Below are positions 1 through 62,015 of a stretch of DNA of 64,000 bases, one piece after another. The translations under genes and the position numbers were made by a program. The stretch is from Branchiostoma floridae (Eukaryota > Chordata > Leptocardii > Amphioxiformes > Branchiostomatidae): NCBI RefSeq assembly GCF_000003815.2, contig NC_049995.1, positions 17,903,075 through 17,967,074 of the forward strand, read 5' to 3'. How positions within the stretch are numbered: the stretch's first letter is position 1; the number at the start of each line of letters is the position of its first letter. The notes beneath the pieces are model-generated. The model did no database searches, was not told the origin of the DNA, and saw only the letters and a program-made list of their open reading frames with translations.

Positions 1-97
1 CTGACCCTGATGTTTGTTTAGATGCTGTACGTGCCTGACCCTGATGTTTGTTTGTTTAGATGCTGTACGTGCCTGACCCCGATGCCTGGACCGATGA
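1..97 (+). repeat. Acceptor-spanning duplication at first OXR1/NCOA7 exon
   Basis: A 38 bp unit (22-59) carries ATGCTGTACGTGCCTGACC and then TGTTTGTTTGTTTAG, and it precedes the real exon start at 60. A third, partial unit occupies 1-21. The unit therefore contains exon start plus acceptor. Confidence 0.8.
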
Positions 98-3000
98 GGA
101 AACGTCCGTGTCCAGCAGTCCTGCCTCCCCCCCACCCTCGCCTGCAAGCACAGAGATTCCTTCGAGGAGATTCGTAAGTTCTTAGATTCCCTTAGAGGAG
201 TTCCTGTGTTTGGGGAGAGCCACACCCAACACACATTAAAGAACCCACCGCACTTATTGAAAAGCGTAGGGGACCTTACCGATGTGATTGGATCAAACCA
301 ACAGACTGGTCTCCTTGTTGACATCTTTGAAAGGTGATAGTCACCTGTTTTGTCAATCCCTCCACAAATGTGGTAAATCTAAATATTAAATAAACAAGTT
401 TTTTTATTCCTTCCAGGAGATTTGTAAGTTTTCACTAGATTCCCTTAACAAGATCTCTTTTGCTATTCTTAGCATTCTTTTATTAACATTTTTTAGTCAA
501 TACCATGTTTATTTACAAATGTGTGTGTTCATGACACGTTTGTTGATTGACATTTTTAACTTGCCTCTTGTTTTTCCCAAGGATTTGCCAGTTGTACGGG
601 AAAAGGAACCCGCCGTAAGTTGCTCTCCTATGTAATCTTCAAGACTCAAAAGACCTGAAATTTTTCTTACACTGCTGAGTAGAAAAACAAAGAAACAATG
701 CTGCTAGTAAGAGAGCATTAATTTTTGGGACGGTAGACAAGAAGAGGCTAATAACAAAGAGAGCCTTAACAAATCAGCACTTGCAATTAGCCCTCGGGAA
801 AGAACTTGCGAAGAACTATTAAAGTACCCTATTAACGCATGTTTCCAACTTCAGTCGCAGGACCCAGGTCATGTGACCAGCCCCGCCCAGGTCGTGACCC
901 CCAGCAGCAGCAGGCAGTCGTCGCTGGACGAGCTCGGCAGCCAGAAGGAAGACGAGTTCCACGAGCAGTTCCTCAAGATCAACGTCAAGTACATCACAGC
1001 TGGCAAGGTGAGTTCCTCAAGATCAACGTCAAATACATCACAGCTGGCAAGGTAAGTTCCTCAAGATCAACGTCAAGTACATCACAGCTGGCAAGGTGAG
1101 TTCCTCAATATCAACGTCAAGTACATCACAGCTGGCAAGGTGAGTTCCTCAAGATCAACGTCAAATACATCACAGCTGGCAAGGTAAGTTCCTCAAGATC
1201 AATGTCAAGTACATCACAGCTGGCAAGGTCAGTACATCACAGCTGGCAAGGTCAGTACAGCACTCTGTATCTGTATCTGTATAGCCGGTATAACCGTCCT
1301 TCGGCGTAACACACCAGCACTGCTGGCAAGGTCAGACAAGGCCGAGTGTTCACAGCTGCCAGGGTAAATACGGCACTGCTAAAAAGGTCAGTCAAGGTCA
1401 GTACAGCATAGCTGGCAAGGTCAGTACAGCACTGCTGGCAAGGTCAGTACAGCACTGCTGGCAAGGTCAGTACAGCACTCTGGCAAGGTCGGTCAAAGTC
1501 AAGTACAGCACTGTTGGCAAGGTCAGTCAAATCAAGTACATTACTGCTGGCAAGGTCAGTCAATGACAAGCACATCAAGGACAGTTCTGAATATCCAAGT
1601 CAAGTCAATGTGAGACTATAATGAAGGATATGTCATCTCAGTTCCCAAAAGACTAGTCTTGTCTTGTTATGTTGCTTAGCTTATTAATTACCATTTCACT
1701 TTAATGCGATTATGGGAAAAATTACATTTATAGCTAATTCCATTATGTTCCTCTCGGCATCAATTTCATTTTCCTGCAAACTGCAATTACAGGAAAACTT
1801 GTGTGACCTTTTGTAGGGGTCGATTGCTAATCAAAATGCTGAGCGGCAATAATTAAATCTTCTTTTGATGAGTGGCTCTTCGAGGACACGGTCGGTGTTT
1901 GGGAGGCAAAATGTTTTCCCTCTGTGGCAAAATTGCCTGTATTTTTTTTTGCAGTTAAAATCCTGTGTGCACCTGTATATTACAAGTATATATATATATA
2001 TATATGATACACCAGATTGAGTAACTATTTTTGGCGTATGATACACCAGGATTTTAAGAATTGGAATTCAGAAATAAAATCAGGCCTTAGAGAAGACTTT
2101 CCTCTGTAAAACTGCAACTATATTGTAAAGTTTTTCCTGCAATTTGGTAAAAAAAGTATGCAAGTATTCGCCTAAGAGTTAGTTCGCTTCAGAAAATGTA
2201 CAGCAATAGCTTCAAAGTTGTACTTTATTTATTACTAGTCACACTTCTTTCAGCTTGAATAATACAGACTACGGTAACACCGAACGTGATTGTGTCCCAA
2301 ACGCACATTAAGTATCTCCTGGAAATCAAGTTTAGGGATGAGGAGTGGTTTTATTTATCTGTCGGATTGTGACTTATCGTGTTTCCGACCGTTTAAAGGC
2401 ATGTTAAGCGGCGTTCTCCTGGTCACACTGATTGCGATCGTGTTCAACCAGCACAAGTCAAATCTGCTGATCATAGAGAAGGGATGAGAAGAGTATGGAC
2501 ACAGATCTTATATCGTGTTTCCGACTGTTTCAGGGCACGGTAAGCGGCATTCTTCTGGTCACGCCGAACGCGATCATGTTCGACCCTCACAAGTCGGACC
2601 CGCTGGTCATCGAGTTTAGGGATGAGGACAGAGTGGTCTTCTATATATCTGTCGGATTCTGACCCTTCTTGTTTCTGACCATTTCAGAGCATGTTAAGCG
2701 GCATTCTGCTAGTTATGCCGAATGCAATCATTTTCGACTTGCACAAGTCTAAATCTACTGGTCATAGAGTTTAGGGATGAGGAGAGAGTGGCCTGATATG
2801 TCTGTCAGATTCTGACTCGTTGTGTTTCCGACCGTTTAAAGGCATGTTAAGCGGCATTCCAATCTACTGGTCATCGAGTTGAGTGATAAGAAATGTTTCG
2901 TCTATGTCTGTCAGATTATGACGCGTCTCGTTTCCGACCGTTTCAGGGCACGGTAAGCGGCGTGCTTCTGGTCACGCCGAACGCCATCATGTTCGACCCT

Positions 3001-6000
3001 CACAAGTCGGACCCGCTGGTGATCGAGACGGGATGCGAAGAGTACGGCCTCATCTGCCAGATGGACACGGTTCTGTCCGCAGCCATGTACCACGATATCA
3101 GGCCCATGATGGAACCACACAAAAGGTAGGACACACAATAAACAAACAAACAAACAACAGCCACCATGTACCACGATATCAGGCCCATGATGGAACCACA
3201 CAAAAGGTAGGACACACAGTAAACAAACATACAAACAAACAACAGCCACCATGTACCACGATATCAGGCCCATGATGGAACCACACAAAAGGTAGGACAC
3301 ACAGTAAACAAACAAACAAACAAACAAACAACAGCCACCATGTACCACGATATCAGGCCCATGATGGAACCACACAAAAGGTAGGACACACAGTAAACAA
3401 ACAAACAAACAAACAAACAAACAACAGCCACCATGTACCACGATATCAGGCACATGATGGAACCACACAAAAGGTAGGACACACAGTAAACAAACAAACA
3501 AACAAACAAACAACAGCCACCATGTACCACGATATCAGGCCCATGATGGAACCACATAAAAGGTACAATAAATGAATAAACAACAGTACCATTGTTCAGA
3601 TATTTATTACAAAATGTTTTGCCTTTTTGTGTAAGCTCAGTTCGTTTTGGAGTATGTGTCATTGTTGTTAAGTGGTTGGTTAAGTTACTTTGATAATTAG
3701 TTTGATTGATTGATTGTTTAATTGATTGATTGATTGATTGACCATTGCAGAGATGAGATTTACAAGTCAGGTGACTACAGCCAGGAGGAGACCGAACCAA
3801 CCAGCTCCTCCAGGAGCAGTTGCCACGGCAACGGCGGAGCCCCGTTGCCGGGACAGCGGTCGGAGAGTTTGGAGGACGAGGTTTTCGGCGGTGGCGGTGT
3901 TCCCAAACCCCCGGCGGGACCTGGCGTAGAGGTGGCACAACTGGTGGATTTGGGGGACACGATAGCGGATGGCGGGGGCGTGGTAGCGGACAGCGGTGGC
4001 ATTCTCGTGGCAGAGGGTTCGACGGAGGGTTCGATGGAGGATTCTAACGTGCCAAAGCCGCAGAAGTTCGTTGAGGAGCTGGTACCGATTATCGAGGAAA
4101 AAGTGGACCCAAACAGACTCAGCCCTCGCGTGCTCAGTCCTGATGCAGGGATCGATGAGGAAACGGACACAAAGGGCGCGGGAAAAGGACCACCGGACAC
4201 GGTCGCAGACCAGGTCAGGAAAAGCGGCTGTAGCGACGCCAGCGACACGGGGAGCGTAGAGAGCGGCATCGCGGAAATGGTGGACTCAGCGAACCAGAAG
4301 GATAGCGTCAGGCCGGACAACAACGGTGCAATTTCCGAGACGTCGTCGTCCGGGCAACCCGGGTTGCCGGGCGTCGACCCTGCCACAGACACGGCAACAG
4401 ACGGTGTTAACGTGCAAGAGAGTTTAAACTTTGTAGACTTTTCGTGCGGCCTGTTCACCACAGAGGCGAACAGGTCTGGCGTACAGGACATCTCGGAGGT
4501 GATTCCGCAGGACTCCAGCGTACAGGAGGAGATCGCACTCCTTAAAGACGCCTCCAAACTCTCGGAACCCTCGGAAGACTCGGAGCTGAGGATGACAGAG
4601 ACGGTGCGAGAGAGGCCGACATTCCTTCCCTCCTTAACGGGCTCCTTCGATGGTTGGTGGCTTTTATTTCTTATCTATATCCACCGCACTACAAAATACT
4701 GTAAATGCATGTAAGTTTGCGGGGATTTAATTTCGCGGTAGCGGGAAAAAGGACTTTTCGCGGTGGATTTAATTTTGCGGTAACACCATAGACTGCAGTC
4801 TTATATCATGATAGAAAAATATTCGCGGTGGATTTAATTTCGTGGTGAAGTGGTCACCGCGAAAACTGCGAACATTAGTCCACCGCGAACATTTCTGCAT
4901 TTACAGTATGCCTTTTCTTATTTTCCTTGAACACAGAATACTGATCTTTCAGCAAGAATATTATTCTGTATATACAAGAATCCCTGTTTAGTGTTTTGAG
5001 AAAATTCAAGAAACCCAAGGCATATTTTTCTTGTGCAAAGAATTTTTGGTTTGTGGTTTTCATTTCAAATATTTACGTCGTTCACTTTTATTAGTCTTTT
5101 CCTGCGAAGTAATACAGTTTCTTTTTTCCAGCTGATTTGCCAAATCTCATCCTCAAGCTGATTGGCAAAGACATTTCAGCTGCAAATTTAGTGCTAAAAG
5201 ATACATTTGTATCTCTGAATTTTTGCAAGAGTCCAATTCAATTAAGATTGAAAACTAGAGTTGATAAATTTTTTCCCAGCCCCAGTTAAATGACATTGAA
5301 TGACCCATGTTGTAATTTGGCTAACAACCCATAACCTGTCTGTACCACAGAGCTCCTGCAGACCCAACCCTAGTTGGAACACAATGACGCAAACTGTAAC
5401 CCATCTTATGACCCACGTTTTAAGTTTAACCCATCTCATCTATTGACCAACACAGTAAACCATCTAATGGCCCTGCCACTTTTAATTCATGTATCATTTT
5501 AAACCAACATTGTTCACCATCTAATGACCCATGTTGCAACCCATCTGGTGACCAATGCAGTTACCCATTTCTCTGCCCCACAAAGCTTGTCATCCCAGCC
5601 CCAGTTAGAACATTATGACCCATGCCCTTACTCATCTAATGACTAAATCCTGTATCCTATATAATGAGCAACATTGTAACCCATCTAATGACCCATAACC
5701 CATATCAACACCCATAATGACCCACGCTGTAACCCATTTCTTTGCCCCACAGAGCTGCTGCGGTCCCAGCCCCAGTTAGAACATTATGACCCATGCCCTT
5801 ACTCATCTAATGACCAAATCCTGTATCCAATATAATGAGCAACATTGTAACCCATCTAATGACCCACGTTTTAACCCATCTAATGTCCCATATTAACACC
5901 CATCTAGTGACCCACGCTGTAACTCGTCTCTGTCCCACAGAGCTTCTGCCGTCCCAGCCCGTTAGAACATTATGACCCACGCAGTAACCCGTCTCTCTGT

Positions 6001-9000
6001 CCCACAGAGCTGCTGCCGTCCCAGCCCGTTAGAACATTATGACCCACGCAGTAACCCGTCTCTCTGTCCCACAGAGCTGCTGCCGTCCCAGCCCGTTAGA
6101 ACATTATGACCCACGCAGTAACCCGTCTCTCTGTCCCACAGAGCTGCTGCCGTCCCAGCCCCAGTTAGAACATTATGACACACGCAGTAACCCGTCTCTC
6201 TGTCCCACAGACCTGCTGCCGTCCCAGCCCCAGTTAGAACATTATGACCCACGCAGTAACCCGTCTCTCTGTCCCACAGAGCTACTGCCGTCCCAGCCCC
6301 AGTTAGAACATTATGACCCACGCAGTAACCCGTCTCTCTGTCCCACAGAGCTGCTGCCGTCCCAGCCCCAGTTAGAACATTATGACACACGCAGTAACCC
6401 GTCTCTCTGTCCCACAGAGCTGCTGCCGTCCCAGCCCCAGTTAGAACATTATGACCCATGTTGTAATCCATCTTGCGACCCATGCTGTAACCCATCTCTC
6501 TGCCCACAGACCTGCTGCCGTCCCAGCCCCAGTTAGAACATTATGACCCATGCAGTAACCCGTCTCTCTGTCCCACAGAGCTGCTGCCGTCCCAGCCCCA
6601 GTTAGAACATTATGACCCACGCAGTAACCCGTCTCTCTGTCCCACAGAGCTGCTGCCGTCCCAGCCCCAGTTAGAACATTATGACCCACGCAGTAACTTG
6701 TCTCTGTCCCACAGAGCTGCTGCCGTCCCAGCCCCAGTTAGAACATTATGACCCATGCTGTAACCCATCTCTCTGCCCACAGACCTGCTGCCGTCCCAGC
6801 ACCAGTTAGAACATTATGACCCATGCAGTAACCCGTCTCTCTGTCCCACAGAGCTGCTGCCGTCCCAGCCCCAGTTAGAACATTATGACCCACGCAGTAA
6901 CTTGTCTCTGTCCCACAGAGCTGCTGCCGTCCCAGCCCCAGTTAGAACATTATGACACACGCAGTAACCCGTCTCTCTGTCCCACAGAGCTGCTGCCGTC
7001 CCAGCCCGTTAGAACATTATGACCCATGTTGTAATCCATCTAGCGACCCATGCTGTAACCCATCTCTCTGCCCACAGACCTGCTGCCGTCCCAGCCCCAG
7101 TTAGAACATTATGACCCATGCAGTAACCCGTCTCTCTGTCCCACAGAGCTGCTGCCGTCCCAGCCCCAGTTAGAACATTATGACCCACGCAGTAACCCGT
7201 CTCTCTGTCCCACAGAGCTGCTGCCGTCCCAGCCCCAGTTAGAACATTATGACCCACGCAGTAACTTGTCTCTGTCCCACAGAGCTGCTGCCGTCCCAGC
7301 CCCAGTTAGAACATTATGACCCACGCAGTAACTTGTCTCTGTCCCACAGAGCTGCTGCCGTCCCAGCCCCAGTTACAACATTATGTGACCCATGTTGTAT
7401 CCTATATAATGATTGTAACCCATCTAGTGACCCACACAGTAACCCATCTCTCTGCCCACAGAGCTGCTGCCGTCCCAGCCCCAGTTAGAACATTATGACC
7501 CACGCTGTAACTCGTCTCTGTCCCACAGAGCTGCTGCCGTCCCAGCCCCAGTTAGAACATTATGACCCATGTTGTAACCCATCTAGCGACCCACGCAGTA
7601 ACCCATCTCTCTGCCCACAGACCTGCTGCCGTCCCAGCCCCAGTCCCTCAGCTCGCCCCAAGGTCCTCCGCTCTTCCTGTGTCTCAAGGTCATGCAGATG
7701 AAGAAGTCCTTCACCGGCGGCAAGGAGGTCGTTAACCCAGGGAGCACCAAGTTGCCTGAATACTGGTTCGCCATCCCGAAGGACAGGTAAACTCCGGTGG
7801 GAGACACAATTTTGTCAACATTGGTGGGAGACACTGATTCAATGGCTGGGGTTGCAGAAACATCTGTTGGAGATATTCAGTATATTTTGGTTTGCCATCC
7901 TGAAGGACAGATAAACTCCAGTGGGAGACACAATTTTGTCAACCTTGGTGGGAGACACTGATCATTCACTTTGGTAGGAGGCAGTCAAACCTAAGAAGAC
8001 ATACAATGGTATGAGACACTGGTTAGAGTTGCAGAAACATTGATAGGAGATATTCAGTATATTTTGGTTTGCCATCCCAAAGGACAGGTAAACTCCGATA
8101 GGAGACACTGATACACTTCAGTAGGAGACAGTTCAACATTGGCATGAGACACTGGTTGGGGTGCAGAAACATTGGTAGGAGATATTGTGGTCACAAATGT
8201 ATTACCTAAAGCTTGTTAAAGCTGCTCAAATTGGTGTGAGACTGATAAACCTTGATGAGAGACGGTAAACAATGGCAGGGAAAATGTCATTTATGTACAG
8301 GACTCTCCTGACTGTTTGAATTAGAGTGATATTGCCAAAATATTGGGTTGTTAAGTTTCTGAAAACGTGGGTCTAAATCACAGTAAAGAACCATGGTCCA
8401 AACTAAAGCACTAGAGACTGCTCAGACAATGCTAAAAGTAAATGTAGCTAGAAAAGACTGTTTAGAGTCATATTGCCAAAACATTGGGTTGTTGAGGTTC
8501 TAGACGTTAGAGTCTAAATCACAGTTAAGCCCCGTTTACAAATCAAGAATTTAGTTGGCCGAGTTNNNNNNNNNNNNNNNNNNNNNNNNNNNNNNNNNNN
8601 NNNNNNNNNNNNNNNNNNNNNNNNNNNNNNNNNNNNNNNNNNNNNNNNNNNNNNNNNNNNNNNNNNNNNNNNNNNNNNNNNNNNNNNNNNNNNNNNNNNN
8701 NNNNNNNNNNNNNNNNNNNNNNNNNNNNNNNNNNNNNNNNNNNNNNNNNNNNNNNNNNNNNNNNNNNNNNNNNNNNNNNNNNNNNNNNNNNNNNNNNNNN
8801 NNNNNNNNNNNNNNNNNNNNNNNNNNNNNNNNNNNNNNNNNNNNNNNNNNNNNNNNNNNNNNNNNNNNNNNNNNNNNNNNNNNNNNNNNNNNNNNNNNNN
8901 NNNNNNNNNNNNNNNNNNNNNNNNNNNNNNNNNNNNNNNNNNNNNNNNNNNNNNNNNNNNNNNNNNNNNNNNNNNNNNNNNNNNNNNNNNNNNNNNNGCG

Positions 9001-12000
9001 AGTTGTCAGCGAACTCTAAAGTCACGAGGAGGCATGCCCCTGATTTTTTGGAGAAAACGGCAGAGTTTCTTCGTCGGCATCAGGGTCATACCTCCTCATA
9101 ATTTAGAGTTCGCTGACAACTCGGCCGAGCTAAATTCTTGATTTGTAAACGGGGCTTAAAGAACCATGGTCCAAACTAAAGCACTACGGACTGCTCAGAC
9201 TATGCTGCATGTAGCTAGAAAAGAGGATGTTTTCTTCCTTACCAGAGCCGACCACCTCTACGCGTTCTTCCTGCAATGGTCGCCGGACGTGTACGGCCAC
9301 GAGGTCAACAAGGCCGACCTGGAAGTGTCCGGTTTCGTCGTGCTCGGGGAGGAGACGGACTCGCTGGAGGTCGTCGACGACTTCTACTCATCAGAGTCAA
9401 GTCTGTACAAGGACTGGGAGGTCAGTTTGTTTGTTTGTTTGTTATTATGAAAAACAAGCTGTCGGGTTTCATGGTGCTCGGAGAGGAGGCGGACTTGCTA
9501 GAGGTCATCAATCATTGCTACTCCGAGGAATCGAGTCTGTACAAGGACTGGGAGGTCAGTTTGTTTGTTTGTTTGTTTGTTTTTATTTAATATGACTGAG
9601 AAGGGGTTCGTGGTGCTCGGCGAGGAGACCGACTCGCTGGAGGTCGTCGATGACTTCTACTCTTCAGAGTCGAGTCTGTACAAGGACTGGGAGGTCAGTT
9701 TGTTTGTTTGTTTGTTTGTTATTATTTATATGAAAAACAAGCTGTCGGGATTCGTGGTGCTCGGAGAGGAGGCAGACTTGCTAGAGGTCATCAATCATTT
9801 CTACTCCGAGGAATCGAGTCTGTACAAGGACTGGGAGGTCAGTTTGTTTGTCCGTTTGTTTGTTTGTTTTTATTTCATATGACTGAAAAGGGTTTTGTGG
9901 TGCTCGGCGAGGAAACAGACTCGCTGGAGGTCGTCGATGATTTCTACTCTTCTGAGTCGAGTCTGTACAAGGACTGGGAGGTCAGGGGTCACATTCTTGA
10001 TAAGAATGAAAAAAATGACATTTTTTTGCAGGTTGATTTCTCGTGTTATTTTGTTTGAAATGAAGATTGATTGCTCGAAGAAAATTATGATTGGAAACTA
10101 AAGTGAGCTGGGTTTTTCCTAACAGGTGTGTAAGGCTGGTTCTCCTACCTGAAAAATCGTGCCTTCCTAAATGAGAGGGGTTGGAAGTATATTTAATGTT
10201 ATGTCATATGCAGTTCTCGACTTTAGGTGCTATTTCACAACGACAATGATATTAGAAAAAGAAAATGTATCAAAGTTAACCAAACCAGATTTCCTTCTAA
10301 GAGATTCTGAGCATGATAGAGATTACAGCTGCCACACGTACAAGAATTTACAGTTTGTTTATTTTGTTGTTTACATCAGATCGTCACGGCGATGGAGGCC
10401 AGGCGTAGGTTGTCCATGCTGGAAGTTGAGGACAGTTTACCGCAGCCAACACTCCTGGGCAAGAGCAACCTACTGGACTCCAAACATGTCTCACTGGTAA
10501 GACTGAACTCTGAACTCCAACCCCTAACCTTCCTTAGCCAACACTCCTGAGCTAGACTCCAAACACGTCTCACTGGTAAGACTGAACTTTGAACTCCAAC
10601 CCCTAACCTTCCTTAGCCGACACTCCTGGGCAAGAACAACCTGCTGGACTCCAAACACGTCTCACTGGTAAGACTGAACTTTGAACTCCAACCCTTAACC
10701 TTCCTTAGCCGACACTCCTGGGCAAGAGCAACCTGCTGGACTCCAAACATGTCTCACTGGTAAGACATGTTCCCCCAGCTTGTCATTGACAGGTGTCATG
10801 TTCCCCAGCATGTGATTGACAGATGCCATGTTCCCCAGCGTGTGATTGACAGATGTCATGTTCCCCAGCATGTGATTGACAGATGCCATGTTCCCCAGCG
10901 TGTGATTGACAGATGTCATGTTCCCCAGCATGTGATTGACAGATGTCATGTTCCCCAGCTTGTGATTGACAGGTGTCATGTTTATAACTGTGTGTGATTG
11001 ACAGGTGTCATGTTCCCCCAGCTTGTGATTGACAGGTGTCATGTTCCCCAACGTGTGATTGACAGGTGTCATGTTCCCCCAGCTTGCCCAGTTCCTGCCC
11101 CCGAGGACCGAGGGTTACGCCTGGATGCTGATATACTCCACGTTTGAACACGGCATCAGTTATGACTGTGTGATTGACAGGTGTCATGTTTATGACTGTG
11201 TGTGATTGACATGTGATTGACAGGTGTCATGTTCCCCCAGCTTGCCCAGTTCCTGCCCCCGAGGACCGAGGGTTACGCCTGGATGCTGATATACTCCACG
11301 TTTGAACACGGCATCAGCCTCACCACCATGTACAAGAAGATGGTCGGAGTGGACTCACCTGTGCTGCTCGTGGTGCAAGACTCGGAAAATAACGTAAGTC
11401 ACAAGAATGGATGAAGGGATGGAGGGATTTGATGGGTGAATGGAGGGAGGGAGGGAGGGAGGGAGGGAGGGAGGGAGGGGTGAATGATTGAATGGATTAT
11501 GAGTGGACTGTTGGATGAATGAATGAGAATGAATTGGTGGATGGATGGATTTGTGGATGGATGGATGGGTGGATGGATTGATAGTTGTATGGATGAGTAT
11601 ATTTAATGAGTGGATGGATGAGTGAATGAATGAGTGAATGGATGAATGCACTTTGAAATTTGTATCAGATTCTAATCGAAATTATATGATATTGATTGAA
11701 ACCTGTCTATCCTCAGGTGTTCGGAGCTCTGACGTCCAGTCCAGTTAAGATCAGCGAGCATTTCTACGGCACAGGAGAATCTTTCCTTTTCACCTTCTTC
11801 CAAGACTTCAAGGTAAGTGTAGGAAGTGTAGTAATTGTCTTAAGTTGGACTTGACATTTCATTATTAGGAGGTCTGTTGGACTGTAGATTAAGTGTTGGG
11901 TTAATCTTATGTATGTTTTATGATTTTGAGGTTGCCCCCAAACCATGTCTGATGTGAAATTCTGCGTAAAATACCGGTATGGCGTGCAAAACTCTGCAAA

Positions 12001-14347: not shown

Positions 14348-15401
14348 TCCGACCCCCACACGGCTTCAACAAGGAACCCGACACCGACAGGGCTTCAATA
14401 CGTAACCTGATATACCCATTGGCTTCAAATGTTGTACCTGATCTTTAGCGAAAAGTCCCAGAGGAACCTTGAATTTACAGTTTTGGATGATTCTGAAATG
14501 TAACCTGATCTTATGCAGTTGTAATCTTATCTCACTGCTAGGGTGGTGAGATGTAACCTGATCTTACAGCTGGGCTTGTGAGGTGTTACTTGATCTTATG
14601 CAGGTGTAACCATATCTTAATGCTGGTGTTGTGAGACGTAATGTGATCTATCACAGAGATGTAATCTGATCTTACACAGCTGTAACCTTATCTCGTCCCT
14701 GCCCTGCACTGTTGTTGTACTTAGTTAGCTGCAGGGTGAGTAACAGTTGCACATCCATGTAGTTTTGTATGGGGAAAGGTGCATCCACTTCAGGCTGTTG
14801 GGCTAAACTGAGGCAAATTCTAGGCAAATTCTATTCACTCTGTTCTTCTTAGATCCCAGCTGTGTGCAAGCATGTCAATTCCGTCTGACTAGAGAAAGTT
14901 GGTCCAGGTGCTATATCCACGCATCCAACAGTCTGTAAAGACCTTTGTTCTCTTTATGTCAACGTACTTGTGGCTGAATTCCATAGAATTTGATCACTAT
15001 CATGGTTCCAACCTTGACAGCAAGTATTCAATGCCAGAGGACGCCCCCCCCCTCTACAGTATCAAGTTTCCTACCAAACAGGCTGCAATGCTGCAGACCG
15101 AAGTAGTTTCTTCTGTTCAGCTTCATCAGTGCCTAATGACTATACCTGGAGTTACTATTAGAAGGAAATATGAAATAGGGAGACAAAAGATTGGGCCTCA
15201 GCAGTTAAATTCATTGTTTTTGGACGCAAGTGTCAAATGGGATTCCTAAAGGTATCAGACATGAAGCTAATACAATGGGTTGTAAAGTACAGTCCGATCT
15301 GACTGTGTTCACTCTCAGAAACTGAATGAGCCAAATTGAAGACCATGGAAGACCCTGTTTTATATTTCAAATTTTAACATGTTTTGTTTCTGAGATAAAC
15401 T

Positions 15402-15806: not shown

Positions 15807-15953
15807 AGAGATAGACCAACTACAGGTTCGATTCACAGATGTGGCATGAGAGATGGGGCACCTAGACTGACTGTGAGAAGTGTACTAAGCTGATGTACAT
15901 AATTCATCTTGCTTATAAAATTATACATTATTTACATATTACTGGATCATCAG

Positions 15954-27426: not shown

Positions 27427-27429
27427 GAA

Positions 27430-50500: not shown

Positions 50501-53500
50501 GCCAGGCCTCCGTCCGGGTGATTTTTAGTGAATCACCAACTCCAGACAGAATGGTTTGCTCCATCGCACACCACACCATCGCACGTGTGGGGGTTCTTTA
50601 ACAATATTTTTATGAAAAGATAAATAAAAGACATTTTTGTTTCACCCACAGTCATGGAGAGACCCCTAACGAAGAACAGACGTCAGCATTTGTGAACCTC
50701 TGTGCCAACTGGACAGCCAGGAACCCCACAGATCTCATAGGTAAGGCTTCCTTCTTAAATAACTTATAAGGAAGAAGTTGTTACATGTTTGATACATTTG
50801 GGGCTGCATTCTTCACACTGTAACAGCGATACCTAGCTGCAGTTTGGAGTACTGCATCAGGGACACCCATAGCTACAGTGCAATGTTATTAGTTATTGGG
50901 TGGGCCGACTACTCTCTTTTTGCAGCCAGGGGCTGAATTGCGAGAAGCTTATAATAGGCAGGGCTAAATCGCAAGTGTCTGGAGCGAGCTGCCATTCGGC
51001 GCCACTCAGGTGACCTCAATACGACAGTAATTGCCCCAGGTGCGGGCATGGGACTGTAGGTTTTGAACCATTCAGACTGGGAAGGACCCCTACTTTTTGA
51101 GATAAGTGTGGTGGGTTCTTTAATGTGCTCAAGGTGTAACCACTCAAGTGAACGAGTCCATCCTAGTGCAAGAGCACCTTTACCTGTTTAAGTCTAACCC
51201 TTTGTTCTCACCTGCCACAGGTGTTCACTGCACCCACGGGTTCAACCGGACAGGTTTCCTCATCGTGGCTTACCTGGTGGAGAAACACTCTTGGAGGTGA
51301 GGTCATAGCTTTCTGTGTACCGCCGCTGGTAAAGTCACTTATTTCGGTGTACTTTCAATTGACTGGTGACATCACTGATTTCTGTACACTTACATTGGTG
51401 ACACCTCTTGTGTCTGTGCACTGCTGCTGGTGACATCACTAATTTCTGTGCACAAATATCACAGTGTCAAATCAACTATTCAGGCCTTTAGAGTTGATAA
51501 CTGTTTACTTCTGCTAATTACATCACTGATTGTTGTGCACTTCTGCATGTGACATCACTGATCTGTGCACACACATTGCAGTGTCGAGGCAGCTGTCCAG
51601 GCCTTCACTGTCGCTCGGCCCCCTGGGATGTATAAAGGTCACTACCTGGAGGAGCTGTTCCGTCGCTATGGCGATGCAGACGATGCCCCGCCCGCCCCGC
51701 CGCTCCCTGATTGGTGCACGGAGTCTGATGACTTGGACGATGATGGAAACCCGACCCAGCAGCCATCCAATGGGATGAAAGGTCAAAGGGCAGGGGGCAC
51801 GACCTATAAGGTAACTGTGCTGATAGATGAAGTCTTTCTTCTTATATTTTGTTCCTTTTTTGAGCTAGTTACAATATGGCACACTGTGTAAACATTTAGG
51901 CTGGTCAAATGTTATTTACATTGTGTCAAGTTCTTCCTATAATTGTAAGACTTGTACTAAATTTTCAGCATGATTGGAAATTCAACAAGCAAATATCTGC
52001 CATAATTTCTGTTGACAACAGCTTCATTTAAACAAAATAAAAAATGTTGCTAGACTAAGTATAGGATCAAATCTTTGGTGTTGATAATAAATGTTAGCTT
52101 GTCTAGTATTTGTTTTGCTTTCTCTGTATTTGCAGGTTTGTATGAAAGATAATTTTGATAGTAAATGATATTGTTTCATTATAGCTCTTATGTTAACACT
52201 GATTACATTTTGTATAATATTACGAATGTTGGTAACTTTTAAAGTTAGTTTTTCTGTCCCCCAGCCCTTTATGGACGGGCTGGTACCCGGAGTGGACACC
52301 GTCACGGACCAGCCGCGGCTACGCAACGTGCAGCAAAAAGTACAGCACATGTGTGGCTGGCACAAGTGAGTACTGTTTCTGTGCTACTGTTGTACTGTTT
52401 CTGTACTACTGTTCTCTTTATTTGCACGCTGTTGCAATTTTGCCTACTGACAGTAGTTGTATGCTTTTCTATTCTACACAGTTTCAGCGACTGAATAGTG
52501 TCAGATTAGATTTTCCTCCCACCCTTCTGTTGTCATTTTGCCATTGAAATTTCTTACCTATATGTTGGTACCTCGGATGATACGAAGCACACTGTGTTGT
52601 ACATTCATTCTGTTGATTCTGTCGATTGAGGCAGACTTTCTCAGGTGCCCAGCCAGTCCCCATGTGTGTTCTACATGTTTTCTGTCCTGACATGTGTGTT
52701 CTACATGACTGTGTTCTGTCCTACAGACAGGGTTTCGCAGGCATCCAGCCGGTCTCCATGTGTGTTCTGTGTGTGTTCTTGTTCTTGTTCTGTACTGATG
52801 TGTGTTCTACGTGTGTTCTGTCCTGCAGAAATGGTTTCCCGGGTGCCCAGCCTGTCTCCATGTGTGTGTTCTGTACTTACATGTGTTCTACATGTGTTCT
52901 GTACTGACATGTGTTCTACATGTGTTCTGTCCTACAGACAGGGTTTCCCGGGTGCCCAGCCCGTCTCCATGGACAGGAAGAACCTGAGTTTTCTGGCACA
53001 GAAGCCGTACAAGGTCAGCTGGAAGGCCGACGGTGTCAGGTAAGGTCACCTAACACATGTCTGTTCTGTAAATTTGTCATTTTTGCAGTGGTCTCGTTTT
53101 GCTCAAGGGGGAAAAAGACTCTGTGATTTCTTTGCATTATTATTTTTTATTCCAATTTGGGGTTGAAACAAGTCTACAGTGCAAGGGGTGATGAGACAAT
53201 GAGACAATACAGTGTTCCATCCCCCCAGATCTCTTGGTTGTCCATTGTAATAGAACCTTGATTGTTGTTCTCAAAAGGCCAGCCTCAGAACTGCCCCCCT
53301 GTAGAAAGAGTCTGACAGACACTAACGTACCCCCCTGTACCCCCCCCCCCCCAGGTTGATGTTGTTAATAGACGGCCCCCAGCAGGTTTACCTAGTAGAC
53401 AGAGACAACACAGTGTTCCACCCCCCCCTGGAAGTACCCACCGGAAGTACCCCACTGAAGTACCCCCCTGTACACTAATGTACCCCCTGTATCCCCCAGG

Positions 53501-56500
53501 TTGATGTTGTTAATGGACAGCACCCAGCAGGTGTATCTAGTAGACAGAGACAACACCGTGTTCCCTTCCACCCCCCCCCCCCGGGGAGTACCCCCAGCCC
53601 TGTACACTAATGTACCCCCCTGTCTCCCCCCCCCAGGTTGATGTTATTGATAGACGGTGCCCAGCAGGTATATCTAGTAGACAGAGACAACACAGTGTTC
53701 CACCCCCCCCTCCTGAAGTACCCCCCTGTAGACAGACACTAATGTACCCCCCCTGTACCACCCCCCCTACAGGTTGATGTTGCTAGTAGATGGCCCCCAG
53801 CAGGTGTACCTGGTAGACAGAGACAACACAGTGTTCCATGCGCCCCAGCTCACCTTTCCCCGCAGAAAGGAACCGGACAAGCAGATCTGTAACACACTAC
53901 TGGACGGGGTAGGTGCATGATTTCTGGAATTTGTAAGAACTTGATGTAAATGCACTGCATAAGACTATTGACAATGTATGTAGTACCTGTATCTCTAAGT
54001 GTTGCAGTCCTTAGGATTAGAAATCAAGCTATTGGCCACTGTTGCAAGAATCTGACACACATATACTAACAACAGTGCTAATACACTGTTATAGTGAGCA
54101 CCTGTCTACTATGGCCATTTTCATAAAGTTACTGGTTTCCAGTGACTATAGTGCAGGTTAGTAAATCTGTGATCTACTGCTAGTTTTACTGAAAATCACA
54201 GTTTTCTAACTGTGCACAGCTGACTGTAATTGTTTTCTCCTCATGAACTAGAATAGATGGACATTTCACAGTTGATGAGGTTCTTATTAGAATAAATTAG
54301 CATTTATTTTTCCCATGTGAGAATCCTGGATTTGTGAAAAAAAATTTCAAACTCGCACAGAAGATTTTTTTCTCTTAATTTCCCAGGAGATGATAATAGA
54401 CAAGGTGGCTGGGAAGGACCGGCCGAGATACCTGGCCTATGACATCATCAAGTTTGAGGTGAAGTACTGATTCAGTTTTGTTGTGGAGTGTATACGTAGA
54501 GAGATTTCGTGGTTGGTGACTCGGAACCTGAGTTCAAATCTGTGACAGGTCTGATGTTTTGCACTTGCTTCTGTTTCCATGATTCGAGTTCTAGCCAGCA
54601 AAATTTTCCATACTACCTGGTCCCTTTTTTCTTAACAACAATACTAACAGTGCAACAATCATCCCCACCCCAGGGGCAGCCCGTGGGGGAGTGCGATTTC
54701 TCGCGGCGGCTCCTGTGCATCAGGAAGGAGATTGAGGAAACGCGGGACAGCCAGGCGCAGGCCGGCGCGCTCGACAAGTCCCGCGAACCCTTCAGCGTGC
54801 GCCACAAACCCTTCTGGGACATCACCATGTCTCCTAAGGTCAGGTCATAGGTCAGAAATTGTCACAAAAGGTCAGCTCATAGGGCACAAACTCTGACATA
54901 AGCAGACTTGCAACAATTGGAGCAAAGTGTGATTGGTAGTTGGAAGTAAAAAAAAATTGTTTCACTAGACTAAGTTGGTATATGATTACACATCCTCAAG
55001 ACATGCCATTTACCACACTCATCATCATTATGGCCCCACTACTTAACTTGCTAAATGACACACCAAAGCTAAGGAGGTTATAACCAATGCCAGATAACAG
55101 TTACTCAAGCAACGGTCAGACATTTCAAGTAGCACCCACACCATTGTACCTTTGTCTGTGACTCTGTCAGTGAAACATCTGACCATTTCCAAAATCATAT
55201 CCAGTTGCTTAAGTAACCTTCATCAATGCAATGCTATACCTTTAACTGCACCACAGTGCTGAAACACGGTCTTGCATGGGTGTGAGATTTGATCAAGTGA
55301 TGCCCACCCCCACCCCCCAACACCCCTGCTTCTAGATGATAAGTTTCCATAATCTCAATGTGTGCTCCGGAAACACGTTTTTCTGATCATTTACCTGCAC
55401 CACTTAACTGTTAACCCATGGTAACAAGGTTGTAGAGAGACATGTATAAGTTCAAATCATGGCCCCCTCCCCCCAGCTCCTGGTAACACAGGGTACATGT
55501 ATACAAACGTGTACAAATTTTTTATGACATCTACCACCACCCCTGCAGCTCCTGGATGGCAGTTTCTCCTCACAGGTTAGCCATGAGGTCGACGGGCTCA
55601 TCTTCCAGCCAGCAGGACCCAAGGATGTGAGTCTGGCTTCCTTCTGGTTCTTAAGACATGAAGAGTTTATCCTTAAAATGACATCTTCTGGGCTCTAGCT
55701 TTTCTAGGGATGTTTTACACCATGTACATTTTCAGTTACTAGGATGTAGGTCTGGGTTCCTTCTGATTCTAAATATGTGGTTCTTCATAAGATTATCATT
55801 AAGATGACCTTCTGGGCTCTAGCTTTTTATAGGGATGTTGTAAACCATGTACATTTTCAGTAAGAAAATTAGAACAGACAATTTGGATATCGAAAAAGTA
55901 CACACTGCCTTACCTGGTAGACCTTAACTCATCGACAAAGAGCATTTTTTAAGGTCTTTAACATTTAGGAAGTGTATTGTGCAGTGATTGCTTTTACTTG
56001 TTTGAAGAAGAAGATAGACAGACCAAAGACAATATCTTTACCTTCCATGAAGGCTAACATGATAAAAAGTTCAGTAGTGATCAGGCTTTTAGCTAGGATT
56101 TTATCATTGGGAGTCCAAATTTATTCGTGAGTTGTGGTGACTGTCTATTGTAGGGGGGTCTGGGGGCATCCACCCTCCATCGTGCAGAGTTTTTGATGAT
56201 TTTAAGTTAACATGGTGCATTCTAAGCATCCTAAGAGGCAAAAATACTGAATTTCATGCTTGTCAGAGGATTTTCTCCCCAGTATAAGGGTGTCCAGTGC
56301 GTCAAATTTTTTGTTATTCTAAGAAAAGAGTGTCTAGATGACGCCTTGACGCATGCCTGGCTAAAAGCCTGGTAGTGATTTATGCCTGTCTGTGGTGCCT
56401 GTGCAGAAATATGTGGGAGGGCGGTGTGACGACATCCTGAAGTGGAAGCCTCCAACGTTAAACACGGTCGACTTCAAACTGCAGATCAGAAGGGAAGGTG

Positions 56501-59415
56501 GAGAGGGGTGAGTAACAACGTTGGTCAGGATTTTTAAAAAAAATATATTTTACCAGCTGAGGGGTGACATGTCACCTCATTTTGGCGCTTTTTAATATGC
56601 CCTGGGGGTAACCCCAGACATACATGTACATCACATATCAAATATAATAAAAAGTAACATAACGATTGTGTTTGTACTGAAGGCAGCTGTGCCAGTTAAG
56701 ACTCAAAAGCCACACAATATTAAGTTAAGGGTTTTCTCTGAAACCTAACACTAAGACAGGACTGTACTCAGATAAGGATGGACCCCTATTTTTAGATCTT
56801 TTGGGATCTTAAATGTTCTCAAAGTGTTCATGTCTTCAAATATGGGACCTCCGGTCTATTGCAGTGGATGGCCCTAGCCAAATCGTAAATCACCTGAGGA
56901 CATAATGTGCACAGTACAGGGCTCTAGCCAGCGTCCGTCTTTCCGTCAATTGAAGGAAATTTGCTGCGTGTGACGGAAAATTTTTAAACCAATCCGTCAA
57001 CCTTGATGGACAAAAATTCTTGGTGGAAGCTACAGGCGGCTTGGGGACACTGTCGGAAAGCCACACACTGTTTGTTTTGCTATTGTTATGATTGTTGACT
57101 TGGTGTGTCGGCGCCGTTTCGCATACGATAATCTCATTAAAAACCTGTTTTTCAAGGTCTCAGTTTCGTCTTTCTAACTTAATTTTCGCGGTTTTCGTGA
57201 CAATGGCAATTGGCTGACGGAAAACATTTTCGAGCTGGCTAGAGCCCTGGCACATTACTAAGATTCTGATCTGAATTTGTGTATACAGTCAAACCTGCCC
57301 AAGACGACCACCCGGGGACCGGAAAAAAGCGGTCGATTTGGACAGGTGGTCGCTGAGAAGAGTATCGACTCAAAACATGCCCGATGGAAAGTATAAATGG
57401 TTTCCATTGTGCTTAATGGCATAAAGCAAGCACACTGCACGCACGCAAAGAAGCGAGGTCTTTAATCTCAAATACAACAGGCACACTGTAAACTGTAAAT
57501 TTAACCCCAAAATCCGACGCAAACTGGCCGATTTCGGCACAAAATCGTGCTAGTTATCATCAAAAATCGATGAAAACCTCAATTTTGAAAATGATGCGGT
57601 CGTTATGGGTCCCAATTTGGGCCGGTCGCGGTCGCGTTGGCCAGGTGGTCGTTGAGAAAAGGTTGCTTAATGCTTACGTCAATGGGAAAATAAATCGGGA
57701 CCGAGAAATAGTGGTCGAAATGGCCAGGTGGTCGCTGAGAGGAGGTGGTCGTTCGGGCAGGTTTGACTGTATAAGGGGACTCAAAGCAACTGCTTCATCT
57801 CTTGTTGTTCTCCTTTTTCAGAATGTTGGTGCAAACGAAAGGGTTTTTATACGTCGGAGGTTTTGAACAACCGATCGCTCAAATGAAGGTGAGTGCAAAA
57901 ATAGGTTTATGCACAAAATTTTATTCCTCGCAGCCGGTGATGTTGAACACCATTAAGATCCTCTTGGTGTTCTGAACAAAGTTCAACATACGGTAATTTC
58001 TAACACAACAAATTATTATACCCAAATTTTCGACTGATCATCACCATTCTTTGTCAAAGAATGGACAATCCCCTGCTTCTGTGGCATCATGTTATGTAGA
58101 TAGAACACATGACTCAGTGAGCAGTGGATCATAAGTTGCAGGAAGTCTATGGCACCCTCCGTCTCTGTATAGGGATGGTTGTAAAGATCTGGTGTAGCTA
58201 GTTTTTTTGATACCCTCTTTTTGTGTTTGTTTAGCTGTAAATTCCTTAGGCCTGTAGTTTTCAAAATGATAATATATGAATCCATTTGAAAGTGAAGCAT
58301 CTGTTTTTCTCTTGTTGCAGGTGACCAAAGATCTGAAGAAATACGATGGTAAGATCGTGGAGTGCAAGTTTGACGGGGCGACAAAACAGTGGCTGTTTCT
58401 CCGTGAGAGAACGGACAAGAGCTTCCCTAACTCCTACACAACTGCTGTCGGTGGGTGCTTCTCTCTAATACTTTATTAACTATATGGTAGAACCCAGGCT
58501 GCTTTCTACAAATTTGGTATGCTCTCTGGTAACTATTTTTGGGTTCATCAGGTAACTATTTCTGCCGTATGGGTTCATCAGGTTAACTATTTCTGCAGTA
58601 TGGGTTCATCAGGTATCTATTTCTGCAGTATGGGTTCATCAGGTATCTATTTCTGCAGTATGGGTTCATCAGGTAACTATTTCTGCAGTATGGGTTCATC
58701 AGGCAACTATTTCTGCAGTATGGGTTCATCGGGTAACTATTTCTGCAGTATGGGTTCATCAGGTAACTATTTCTGCAGTATGGGTTCATCAGGTTACTAT
58801 TTCTGCAGTATGGGTTCATCAGGTAACTTTTTCTGCAGTATGGGTTCATCAGGTTACTTCTGCAGTATGGGTTCATCAGGTTACTTCTGCAGTATGGGTT
58901 CATCAGGTAACTATTTCTGCAGTATGGGTTCATCAGGTAACTATTTCTGCAGTATGGGTTCATCAGGTTTACTATATTACTATTATGCGAACAGAGCCTG
59001 TAACCAGGGATATCTGATAAGTGAACAGTACTGTATGTTTGTAACCATGGAGATCTGTTCTGTTTCCCTCCCAGCTGTGTTTGAGAGCATACAGAACCCC
59101 GTAACCATGGAGATCTGTTCTGTTTCCCTCCCAGCTGTGTTTGAGAGCATACAGAACCCCGTAACCATGGAGATCTGTTCTGTTTCCCTCCCAGCTGTGT
59201 TTGAGAGCATCCAGAACCCCGTTACCAAGGAGATCCTGTTCGAGTTCATCACGAGATCGAGGTACCAGCAGCACCCTCCCCCGGGATCAATGCACCCTCC
59301 CCCTGGCTCCTCACACCCTCCCCAGTCATCGCTGGACAGTCCCCGCGGCCAGAAGAGACCACTGTCACAAGGAGACCACTTAATGCCGCCACCAGAGAAG
59401 ATGCCAAAAAGATAA
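47565..59415 (+). CDS. RNGTT: mRNA capping enzyme: RNA triphosphatase plus guanylyltransferase
   Basis: Exons: 47565-47619, 48514-48623, 49759-49865, 50652-50740, 51221-51296, 51582-51810, 52265-52365, 52938-53039, 53773-53908, 54387-54458, 54674-54838, 55549-55626, 56407-56507, 57822-57888, 58321-58450, 59195-59415 (stop TAA). All phases agree; 612 residues against 597 recalled for human. The N-terminal half is a cysteine-phosphatase-type RNA 5'-triphosphatase with [10 protein letters not shown], nucleophile Cys at about 124. The C-terminal half is a nucleotidyltransferase with WKADG (GMP-accepting Lys at about 285), [22 protein letters not shown] and ILKWKPP, then an OB-fold. The enzyme makes the 5' cap guanylate on RNA polymerase II transcripts in the nucleus (family knowledge). 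An acidic and proline-rich linker (about 200-245) and a His/Pro-rich C-terminal tail are ordinary. Exons 2, 3, 8, 9, 12 and 16 have tandem copies of their borders beside them. Confidence 0.96.
48012..48379. mobile_element. MITE with AGGCCACACCAATTTAATTT ends, 368 bp
   Basis: AGGCCACACCAATTTAATTT ... AAATTAAATTGGTGTGGCCT with inner foldback (GCGAGCGAATC region). An inverted copy of exactly the same length lies at 60619-60986. RNGTT intron 1. Confidence 0.85.
48624..48790 (+). repeat. Copy of RNGTT exon 2 end plus donor
   Basis: GAACCGGTTCCAGTGGCTGA, TGCTGTTTGCTTACGTCAAC and GGCATGGGGGTGAGG recur about 160 bp downstream of the real exon end, in frame and with a donor. Confidence 0.85.
49035..49758 (+). 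repeat. About 80 bp minisatellite spanning RNGTT exon 3 acceptor
   Basis: AACCCACAGGCTAAGATGGG and CTGGTTATCGACCTG (first 27 exon bases) followed by GTTAGTTAATAAGTTAACC-type spacer recur at about 49051, 49150, 49231, 49311, 49393, 49475, 49553 and the real 49759. Confidence 0.9.
50270..50605. mobile_element. Dispersed repeat (SINE/LINE-tail-like)
   Basis: (ATTC)n at one end and GTGGGGGTTCTTTAAC at the other, with CTCTGGCGGCGCCTATCTCC inside. GGTTCTTTAA recurs near 230 (complement), 51116 and 56800, suggesting a common element end. RNGTT intron 3. Confidence 0.45.
51000..51190. mobile_element. Dispersed repeat fragment
   Basis: GTGACCTCAATACGACAGTA and ATTGCCCCAGGTGCGG match 47410-47455 (TGACCTCAATACAACATTAT), and the tail GTGGGTTCTTTAATGTGCTC matches 225-250 in complement. 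Confidence 0.55.
52632..52937 (+). repeat. Four copies of RNGTT exon 8 acceptor region
   Basis: TTCTGTCCTACAG plus ACAGGGTTTCCCGGGTGCCC and AGCCCGTCTCCATG recurs with exon-like starts at about 52635, 52727, 52829 and the real 52938. Confidence 0.9.
53341..53772 (+). repeat. Three extra copies of RNGTT exon 9 start
   Basis: Copies begin at 53355, 53500 and 53637, 145-136 bp apart; the real exon begins at 53773. Each has an acceptor (CCCCCAG) and about 70 in-frame exon bases coding [20 protein letters not shown] or close to it, then C-rich spacer instead of the exon remainder. Confidence 0.92.
55618..55865 (+). repeat. Copy of RNGTT exon 12 end plus donor
   Basis: AAGGATGTGAGTCTGGCTTC and CTTCTGGTTCT recur near 55740 as TAGGATGTAGGTCTGGGTTC; the following 100 bases (TGACATCTTCTGGGCTCTAG) also repeat. 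Confidence 0.75.
56937..57249. mobile_element. hAT-like MITE, 313 bp
   Basis: CAGGGCTCTAGCCAGC / GCTGGCTAGAGCCCTG, flanks GCACAGTA / GCACATTA (7 of 8 equal). RNGTT intron 13. Confidence 0.85.
57284..57772. mobile_element. Tc1/mariner-like MITE with TACAGTCAAACC ends
   Basis: TACAGTCAAACCTGCCC / GGGCAGGTTTGACTGTA flanked by TA, with GGTGGTCGCTGAGAAG inside and in inverse. A fragment of one end lies at 23600-23640. Confidence 0.75.
58519..58975 (+). repeat. 30 bp minisatellite of alternating splice motifs, about 15 units
   Basis: Unit GGGTTCATCAGGTAACTATT TCTGCAGTAT. Each holds a donor consensus (CAG|GTAACT) and an acceptor (TTTCTGCAG). It reads openly as a ten-residue repeat in the frame of the last RNGTT exon but lies in the intron. 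Confidence 0.95.
59041..59220 (+). repeat. 60 bp repeat spanning RNGTT last acceptor, three copies
   Basis: Three exact-length units at 59041, 59101 and 59161; the first two are identical and the third, real one differs at one base (ATACAG to ATCCAG). The unit has GTAACCATGGAGATCTGTTC, TGTTTCCCTCCCAG, then exon start CTGTGTTTGAGAGCAT and CAGAACCCC. Confidence 0.95.
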
Positions 59416-60986: not shown

Positions 60987-61000
60987 AAAGAAAAGTTGTG

Positions 61001-61006
61001 AATAAA
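61001..61006 (+). terminator. Possible poly(A) signal of RNGTT
   Basis: AATAAA 1.6 kb after the stop, 15 bp past the end of the 60619-60986 element. Confidence 0.3.
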
Positions 61007-61605
61007 TGTACAATACAGACAGTCAGCATTGTGTTCAGTAGTCATTTTATTACAAAAGTCATAAACAGATGAAGGTTGTTTCATTCTTTTTTATCTCCAT
61101 GACTCCTTTTGATTTGTAGATAGTGGTGATCATGTTACAAATGTAGCTTTATAAAAGGTTTGGTCGGGATGCTTCTTGCACCTCTCTAAAGATAGCACAT
61201 GTGGAAGAATTTTTCCACTTTTCAGTGAAAAGCAGAAGTATCTAATAGTATCGATTTTATTGTTTAAAAATGCATGTTAAGGTCCAGCAATTTCAAGTCG
61301 TTTTAATAAGTCAATCTAATTGCTTAAAGTGTATGGAAATAGGGCCAGTCCAAGCTCTCACAGTCGTTAATTTTGGGGATCCACCAATTGAAGGACAAAA
61401 CAACATCTAGCTACAGTTTTGGAATCTTAGCATCAAGATGTTCTTTTCTGCTTGTACACAAACCGTGAGTGGGGATAATGGGCGGTGCTGACAACCCTTA
61501 ATTACTTAAGATGTATTTTTGGTCAGCGTTAAGCTAGCAACCCTCAATTAGAGGTCCTTTTTAATTTGATTTGACTAACTATGCTGGACAGTTTAGAATA
61601 GACAG

Positions 61606-62015
61606 AAGCTCCACCGCTCAGACCGCCGACACTTGGTACGGTCCGGACGACGTCTCCTTATTTGGTGTGCTGGCGGCTGAGTCCGTGAGCTCCACCCCTC
61701 AGACTGCCGACACTTGGTACGGTCCGGACGACGTTTCCTTATTTGGCGTGCTGGCGGCTGAGTCCGTGAGCTCCACCCCTCAGACTGCCGACACTTGGTA
61801 CGGTCCGGACGACGTTTCCTTATTTGGCGTGCTGGCGGCTGAGTCCGTGAGCTCCACCCCTCAGACTGCCGACACTTGGTACGGTCCGGACGACGTCTCC
61901 TTATTTGGCGTGCTGGCTGTTGAGTCTATAAGCTCCACCCCTCAGACTGCCGACACTTGGTACGGTCCGGACGACGTTTCCTTATTTGGCGTGCTGGCTG
62001 TTGAGTCTGTGATCT
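61606..62015 (-). repeat. 81 bp minisatellite duplicating the Patched-like C-terminus and stop
   Basis: Five units: CTCAGACTGCCGACACTTGG, TACGGTCCGGACGACGTCTC, CTTATTTGGCGTGCTGGCGG, CTGAGTCCGTGAGCTCCACC. On the minus strand the unit codes STPNKETSSGPYQVSAV and TGA. The copy nearest the coding region supplies the real end; the other four lie after the stop. The 81 bp period makes both strands open. Confidence 0.95.

Follow-up and report, generated by a model that had tools for sequence, protein, structure and literature searches.

The Branchiostoma floridae window analysed here (64,000 nucleotides at 17.90-17.97 Mb of the 19.12-Mb contig NC_049995.1, ~1.2 Mb from the contig end) carries numerous mirage minisatellites, tandem arrays whose unit contains an exon edge together with its splice site, so that spare copies of the edge accompany the functional one. 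This class is already known from single amphioxus genes; the unexpected result is the protein-level conservation of the spare copies, whose exonic parts have diverged mostly at synonymous sites. Additionally, junction arrays exceed unit-level random placement about two- to three-fold, most strongly in this selected window. We consider the chances about even that the spares are screened by selection through occasional contraction of the array, which would place a spare in the functional position.

We recognised six genes in the window: an OXR1/NCOA7-like gene carrying a TLDc domain, an EXOSC6-like gene encoding an RNase PH protein, UPF0193, a C2H2 zinc-finger gene (minus strand), RNGTT, encoding the mRNA capping enzyme, and a patched-like gene (minus strand). 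The names OXR1, EXOSC6 and RNGTT rest partly on presumed orthologues, and "patched-like" is a label by appearance alone, a Pfam search having given no match for this minus-strand membrane protein. Based on the reading frame and presumed orthologues, we curated 105 junctions by eye, repeated and unrepeated alike. GT or AG is present at all 105, and the four main genes, once their curated exons are joined, have open frames of ~767, 277, 982 and 593 residues, any stop codon falling at the very end; the frame of UPF0193 is open too when the exon adjoining an assembly gap is omitted. The inner junctions, as read from the DNA of this one assembly (513 Mb, 431 contigs), yield open spliced frames. A query with an OXR1 exon returned one full match, so the assembly offers no second haplotype there.

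A junction was scored as spanned when a Tandem Repeats Finder (TRF) array with a period of at least 20, or a self-BLAST pair 20-1000 bp apart with an identity of at least 75%, covered at least 8 bp on each side of it. A preliminary description of the window had listed 26 exon edges as lying within tandem units, in all six genes, and had called the pattern systematic. The repeats are real, and 25 of the 26 positions coincide to within 1 bp with a curated GT/AG junction; the exception, 30039, is an upstream copy of junction 30210. A repeat covers 24 of these edges if 2 bp of tolerance is allowed, and 23 at the exact position, since 37641 lies just beyond the rule; the two edges that fail are 7787 and 55627. 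Two further spanned junctions, 174 and 51582, were absent from that list. Spanned junctions occur in five of the six genes; in the patched-like gene the sole junction in the window (62958) is unspanned and the array spans the stop codon instead. With only 25 of the 105 junctions spanned by local repeats, "systematic" is too strong a word, and we regard the earlier observation as partly confirmed and its interpretation as partly supported.

The conservation of the spares was measured at the codon level at 22 window junctions, a set that does not include 174, 7787, 22301, 30210, 39076, 51582 and 55627 (no alignable copy was obtained at 51582). The functional copies and the distinct spares differ at 231 of the 750 synonymous and 118 of the 2661 nonsynonymous sites, which gives a ratio of nonsynonymous to synonymous differences per site (pN/pS) of 0.14, against 1.84 and 1.87 when the copies are read in the wrong frames. 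The comparison of copy with copy gave 0.19 (wrong frames, 1.69 and 1.40), and pN was below pS in each of the 14 arrays with at least four differences. Variable columns numbered 42/387, 43/388 and 122/387 at codon positions 1, 2 and 3, respectively, and third-position differences were synonymous in 205 of 215 cases (14 arrays), compared with the 62% expected for random change. Exonic gaps were few (five among the window copies that were aligned, of which two have a length divisible by three), and six stop codons occur among the aligned spares. We considered zinc-finger repeats as the source of the codon signal and rejected them: without the zinc-finger gene, 145 of 538 synonymous and 89 of 1837 nonsynonymous sites differ (pN/pS 0.18), and the signal is also seen outside the window.

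This second data set is a genome sample of 58 regions (230 kb) built from myosin, TCP1, kinesin and HECT exons. Thirteen sample junctions were available, 11 of them with alignable copies, and yielded a pN/pS of 0.12 (wrong frames, 1.97 and 2.50) and no stops; the value was 0.07 without the myosin gene on C10 and 0.27 for copy against copy. Variable columns at positions 1, 2 and 3 were 14/195, 11/197 and 42/194.

With selection on the functional copy alone, a pN/pS of roughly one half or higher would be expected. Simulations of small populations, with simple rules and few seeds, provided values for spares under no selection. With block duplication and deletion in a single lineage, the ratio for neutral spares was 0.49-0.64 relative to the functional copy and 0.70-1.15 between copies; in a small population, the corresponding ranges were 0.49-1.37 and 0.70-1.14. 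Since the observed 0.14 and 0.12 compare with simulated neutral values of at least 0.49, the spares look screened by selection. Most units are not multiples of three, so the frame of the copies cannot be maintained by read-through of the array. We also rejected germline turnover with passage through the functional position as the cause of the conservation: neither simple simulation supported it, because a passage into function is accompanied by a loss of diversity. This failure of a germline-only version makes contraction in body cells the better guess. Changes common to several copies fall at positions 1, 2 and 3 in 9, 6 and 34 cases, and those private to one copy in 27, 27 and 49; the proportion of positions 1 and 2 to position 3 is hence 54:49 for private and 15:34 for shared changes (P = 0.015). 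Shared changes are thus more biased to the third position, which suggests that selection screened the old history of the arrays more than the recent one.

With regard to the frequency of junction arrays, the preliminary description had reasoned that exons are rare and that random placement would therefore miss their edges. The argument fails as stated: tandem repeats make up 21% of the window. They occupy 36% of the introns of the curated genes vs 8% of the window outside gene spans. By raw coverage, we found no excess in the window, where the 25 spanned junctions compare with 24.4 +/- 4.5 under circular shifts and with 32.4 expected from the introns of the same genes. There was none in the sample either, where repeats span 8 of the 270 refined edges (3.0%) vs 4.5% of non-exon and 1.3% of exon bases. 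The raw test is biased, because each of the n copies of an array adds to intron coverage, whereas its junction is counted once. Since array growth inflates intron coverage in this way, raw coverage was dropped as the final answer and the test was redone at the level of units.

The sample edges for this test were drawn from 198 of the 403 hidden Markov model (HMM) matches listed, two of the 198 lying outside the sampled stretches, and the refined edges exclude five odd-length hits and one duplicate. The strict set of 270 edges omits those under the splice score; a set of 365 exon ends restores them, minus two long TCP1 hits. Twenty-one of the 58 regions were hand-picked for exon density, the rest being automatic, and the borderline array C6:18691097 was scored as non-junction. 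In the window, the EXOSC6 array was counted as two families, two neighbouring OXR1 pairs were merged, and the patched-like gene was excluded.

Counted by unit, 23 of 36 window arrays lie at junctions vs 8.8 expected, in a window picked for this very pattern. In the sample, 8 of 37 arrays do so with the strict edges (4.1 expected, P = 0.03) and 13 of 37 with the 365 exon ends (6.25 expected, P ~0.001), five of the 13 having been recognised by eye. The sample excess survives the removal of any one of the four chromosomes tried (P <= 0.026). The region at C2:31.97 Mb was added after its mirage had been noticed in the HMM hits; without it, the count is 12/35 vs 5.85 (P = 0.002), and without that region and C10 it is 8/31 vs 4.62 (P = 0.04). 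Hand-picked regions gave 10 of 19 arrays vs 5.5, and automatic loci 3 of 18 vs 0.7. The enrichment over shuffled positions that had been predicted is therefore absent from raw coverage and present at the unit level, and the phenomenon reaches beyond one locus, with arrays on several chromosomes. GC bias was considered as a cause of array formation and set aside: non-junction arrays differ from their region by only +0.008 in GC, junction arrays by +0.046.

Breakpoints were compared over 37 junction arrays (25 from the window and 12 of the 13 from the sample), with lengths partly read by hand. The exonic share of the unit averages 0.49, and its spread is indistinguishable from uniform (Kolmogorov-Smirnov P = 0.35); the 37 arrays thus show no breakpoint fixed relative to the splice site. 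Both kinds of border are duplicated, with acceptors and donors in a 20:17 ratio, and unit lengths modulo 3 fall into classes of 10, 16 and 11 arrays. Two arrays straddle stop codons (OXR1 14332 and patched-like 61607), and mirage-like repeats thus occur also at the borders of coding sequence and 3' untranslated region (3'UTR). One 21-bp array, divisible by three, is confined to RNGTT coding sequence. Any border of constrained and free sequence suffices, and nothing points to the splice site itself as singled out.

The selective screening that we favour could proceed as follows. The starting event would be a tandem duplication of ~30-240 bp whose breakpoints are random with respect to the splice site. 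If it included an exon edge, it would be tolerated, since the edge attached to the exon body remains functional, and the array could then extend into the intron. The array, being unstable, would contract at times, most plausibly in somatic cells, and put a spare into the functional place. We infer this last step from the sequence of a single assembly; at the Adh3 mirage, somatic instability has been detected, according to the accessible part of PMC3087553. In acceptor arrays such as that of RNGTT at 53773, only an event at the DNA level (or a template switch) between homologous points would join a spare to the exon body. In a very large population, selection might see even the tiny cost of a bad spare. 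Conserved spares would also keep exon-edge arrays recognisable for longer, and the excess at edges may be partly persistence. A wider version is possible but doubtful, namely that the spare exon edges form a conserved reservoir, exposed genome-wide through array instability in body cells or through an RNA-level route that regularly reads spares into protein, the lancelet then carrying several interchangeable versions of many exon ends.

Several observations weigh against screening by contraction. That shared changes are more constrained than private ones agrees better with spares that were once functional copies than with steady selection on them in situ. Spares nearest the functional copy, which contraction might favour, are not more constrained (0.19 vs 0.14 for the rest). 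The intronic parts of the units seem less diverged than third codon positions (0.084 vs 0.187), a difference that is not fully explained. A cruder comparison of all pairs with fixed exonic lengths gave 0.057, 0.064 and 0.124 at positions 1, 2 and 3, and 0.053 in the introns; we tentatively attribute this weaker contrast to out-of-register ends, indels and simple repeats. With respect to frequency, the excess is wholly absent by raw coverage, the sample count includes the five arrays added by eye, and the C2:31.97 Mb region was chosen post hoc.

Among the alternatives, it is unlikely that the spares are captured alleles, i.e., functional edges added to the array by recombination between very different haplotypes and decaying later. 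The very high heterozygosity of the species (PMC12862219) would allow it, and the strongly synonymous character of shared variation, more marked than that of private variation, agrees with it. The accessible part of the same source gives a synonymous diversity of 0.0397, an effective population size of ~1.7 million and a mutation rate of 5.89e-9. Against this diversity, which is not local to the loci studied here, the synonymous difference between spares and functional copies (~0.31, from 231/750) is more than seven-fold higher, and a sampling of living alleles is unlikely because spares differ by ~0.3.

We find it quite unlikely that a process linked to splice sites or exons makes duplications at borders. 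The preliminary description had suggested splice-site sequence, RNA intermediates or R-loops, and the two- to three-fold unit-level excess, also found among sample arrays with a TRF match of at least 85% (7/21 vs 2.7, P = 0.008), agrees with such targeting. The mechanism is unsupported because the breakpoints look random and two of the arrays lie across stop codons; acceptors are affected about as often as donors, and the longer persistence of copies kept by selection predicts the same excess.

Use at the RNA level, with some spares as true alternative exon ends or small cassette exons, appears improbable. As we read the sequence at 9421, an AG stands before the spares, in two cases following a T-rich tract, and the phase would suit a cassette exon. 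In acceptor arrays such as that at 53773, however, a spare would have to be joined to the exon body at a homologous point, and splicing makes no such joins; unit lengths are as a rule not multiples of three. Additionally, reverse transcription-polymerase chain reaction (RT-PCR) and Adh3 data suggest, in the accessible part of PMC3087553, that regular splicing is retained.

Least probable of all is that the arrays are neutral debris, random tandem duplications made harmless by the working inner splice site and turned over by unequal exchange: junction coverage no higher than intron coverage by raw bases, random-looking breakpoints and unit lengths, stops in some copies (e.g., at 2947) and the weaker codon contrast of the crude all-pairs comparison would all fit, but pN/pS values of 0.12-0.27, in the reading frame only, would not, and neither simulation with neutral spares ever fell under 0.49.

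Repeats look denser toward chromosome ends, with near-end counts too small to settle the trend. Across the 58 sample regions, some of which neighbour one another, repeats become sparser away from the contig end (Spearman -0.34, P = 0.008), with mean densities of 0.043 at 3-5 Mb (n = 3), 0.036 at 5-8 Mb (n = 32), 0.020 at 8-12 Mb (n = 14) and 0 at 12-20 Mb (n = 6). Only three regions lie below 3 Mb, with densities of 0.27, 0 and 0.53, and two further stretches at 0.6 and 1.6 Mb, chosen for their proximity to an end, contain 15% and 14% repeat; the figure for the window, 1.2 Mb from the end, is ~24%. Near the C13 end, a 74-bp array with 3.6 identical copies (C13:602340-602605) resembles a donor mirage in a myosin gene.

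The arrays of the window are collected in Table 1.

Table 1. Local repeats at exon edges and stop codons, in window positions
Gene	Feature	Position (strand)	Remarks
OXR1/NCOA7-like	acceptor mirage at 60	1..84 (+)	unit 38 bp
OXR1	donor mirage at 174	156..447 (+)	two diverged copies; absent from preliminary list
OXR1	donor mirage at 1008	967..1574 (+)	unit 44 bp; shorter similar repeats continue the array
OXR1	acceptor mirage at 2947	2513..2961 (+)	unit 154 bp; stop codons in copies
OXR1	donor mirage at 3126	3083..3583 (+)	unit 89 bp
OXR1	acceptor mirage at 7621	5336..7644 (+)	unit 69 bp; 24 aligned copies
OXR1	diverged donor mirage at 7787	7765..8100 (+)	copies at least ~120 bp apart, 68% identity; fails automatic threshold
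OXR1	donor mirage at 9421	9326..9986 (+)	five copies, two types
OXR1	donor mirage at 10497	10444..10766 (+)	unit 79-92 bp; merged with following array in unit-level count
OXR1	30-bp array ending at acceptor, plus ~158-bp duplication with acceptor 11241 and exon start	10766..11317 (+)	
OXR1	donor mirage at 12421	12391..13010 (+)	unit 82 bp; merged with following array in unit-level count
OXR1	acceptor mirage at 14209	13139..14246 (+)	unit 72 bp; 16 aligned copies
OXR1	stop-codon repeat, no splice border	14332..14407 (+)	first unit contains stop codon and 3'UTR start
EXOSC6-like	donor mirage at 22301	22288..22508 (+)	unit 30 bp
UPF0193	acceptor mirage at last acceptor, 30210	29974..30226 (+)	adjoins assembly gap
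C2H2 zinc-finger	acceptor mirage at 34949	34888..35194 (-)	
C2H2 zinc-finger	acceptor mirage at 36136	36050..37405 (-)	unit ~157 bp; 8 aligned spares, differences mostly synonymous
C2H2 zinc-finger	donor mirage at 37641	37463..37683 (-)	one spare; narrowly fails 8-bp rule
C2H2 zinc-finger	acceptor mirage at 38464	38411..38754 (-)	unit 113 bp
C2H2 zinc-finger	acceptor mirage at 39076	39064..39245 (-)	
C2H2 zinc-finger	donor mirage at 39762	39448..39865 (-)	unit 142 bp; two spares with 15 synonymous, 2 nonsynonymous differences
C2H2 zinc-finger	donor mirage at 41027	40957..41065 (-)	unit 46 bp
RNGTT	donor mirage at 48624	48575..48842 (+)	
RNGTT	acceptor mirage at 49759	48975..49785 (+)	unit 81 bp; seven spares with 13 synonymous, 1 nonsynonymous differences
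RNGTT	diverged acceptor mirage at 51582	51415..51605 (+)	absent from preliminary list
RNGTT	acceptor mirage at 52938	52629..52971 (+)	unit 109 bp
RNGTT	acceptor mirage at 53773	53314..53846 (+)	unit 136 bp
RNGTT	borderline duplication beside donor 55627	55622..55861 (+)	~5 bp of exon in unit
RNGTT	acceptor mirage at 59195	59041..59241 (+)	unit 60 bp
patched-like	81-bp repeat from last codons through stop codon into 3'UTR	61607..62017 (-)	unit 81 bp

At 9421, all differences between two of the spares and the functional copy are synonymous (7 in one spare, 10 in the other). The two copy types of this array alternate in a 287-bp higher-order repeat, one type being conserved as protein and the other carrying several amino-acid changes. 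Junction 40028 has one short copy, which is beyond the span rule. A run of (GTTT)n or (AAAC)n lies near the splice site in the units at 3083-3583, 9326-9986, 29974-30226, 38411-38754 and 39448-39865, and also at C10:21155620. In the sample, the kinesin mirage at C2:31967610-31968130 is visible in the HMM hits themselves, where the full exon (75-147) comes after two partial copies (profile 75-103), the spacing between starts being 151 and 154 bp. Between genes, a 56-bp minisatellite of 15 copies occupies 45070-45907, and a similar stretch, CTGTATCTGTATAGCCGGTATAACC, is found in an OXR1 intron near 1266; judging from these sequences, it may be a mobile unit.

If intronic spares are indeed conserved as protein in several unrelated genes, either the arrays are read in ways not yet recognised, or very large populations allow selection to act on sequences whose effect is felt only upon rearrangement of an unstable array. 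The arrays bear on intron gain, minisatellite instability and gene prediction, the last because the copies resemble coding exons. In the human genome, hypervariable minisatellites concentrate near chromosome ends; unlike these subtelomeric minisatellites, many of the arrays described here are anchored on coding exon edges and contain conserved coding pieces.

In searches of the open-licence literature, which returned those on globins and PGBD5 as the papers on mirages, we found no genome-wide test of mirages and no codon analysis of their copies. Mirages are on record for globins and, by citation, Adh3 (accessible part of PMC3087553) and for PGBD5 and troponin C (PMC3902484), and tandem repeats have been noted in the huntingtin gene (PMC2206037). 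The Rogers model of intron gain, as cited in PMC3087553, likewise starts from a tandem duplication with splice signals; unlike in that model, the exons here keep their places, the extra copies stay intronic and no new intron is shown. The closest likeness is to the amphioxus mirages themselves (Adh3, the globins BflGb6 and BflGb9, PGBD5 and troponin C). As described in the accessible parts of PMC3087553 and PMC3902484, they share with the window arrays units of ~10-160 bp that contain an exon edge with AG or GT, the involvement of both 5' and 3' borders, and mostly imperfect copies. To what these sources describe, the present analysis adds a count over 105 junctions and a genome sample against a random-placement null, a tentative trend toward chromosome ends and the codon-level conservation of the spare copies.

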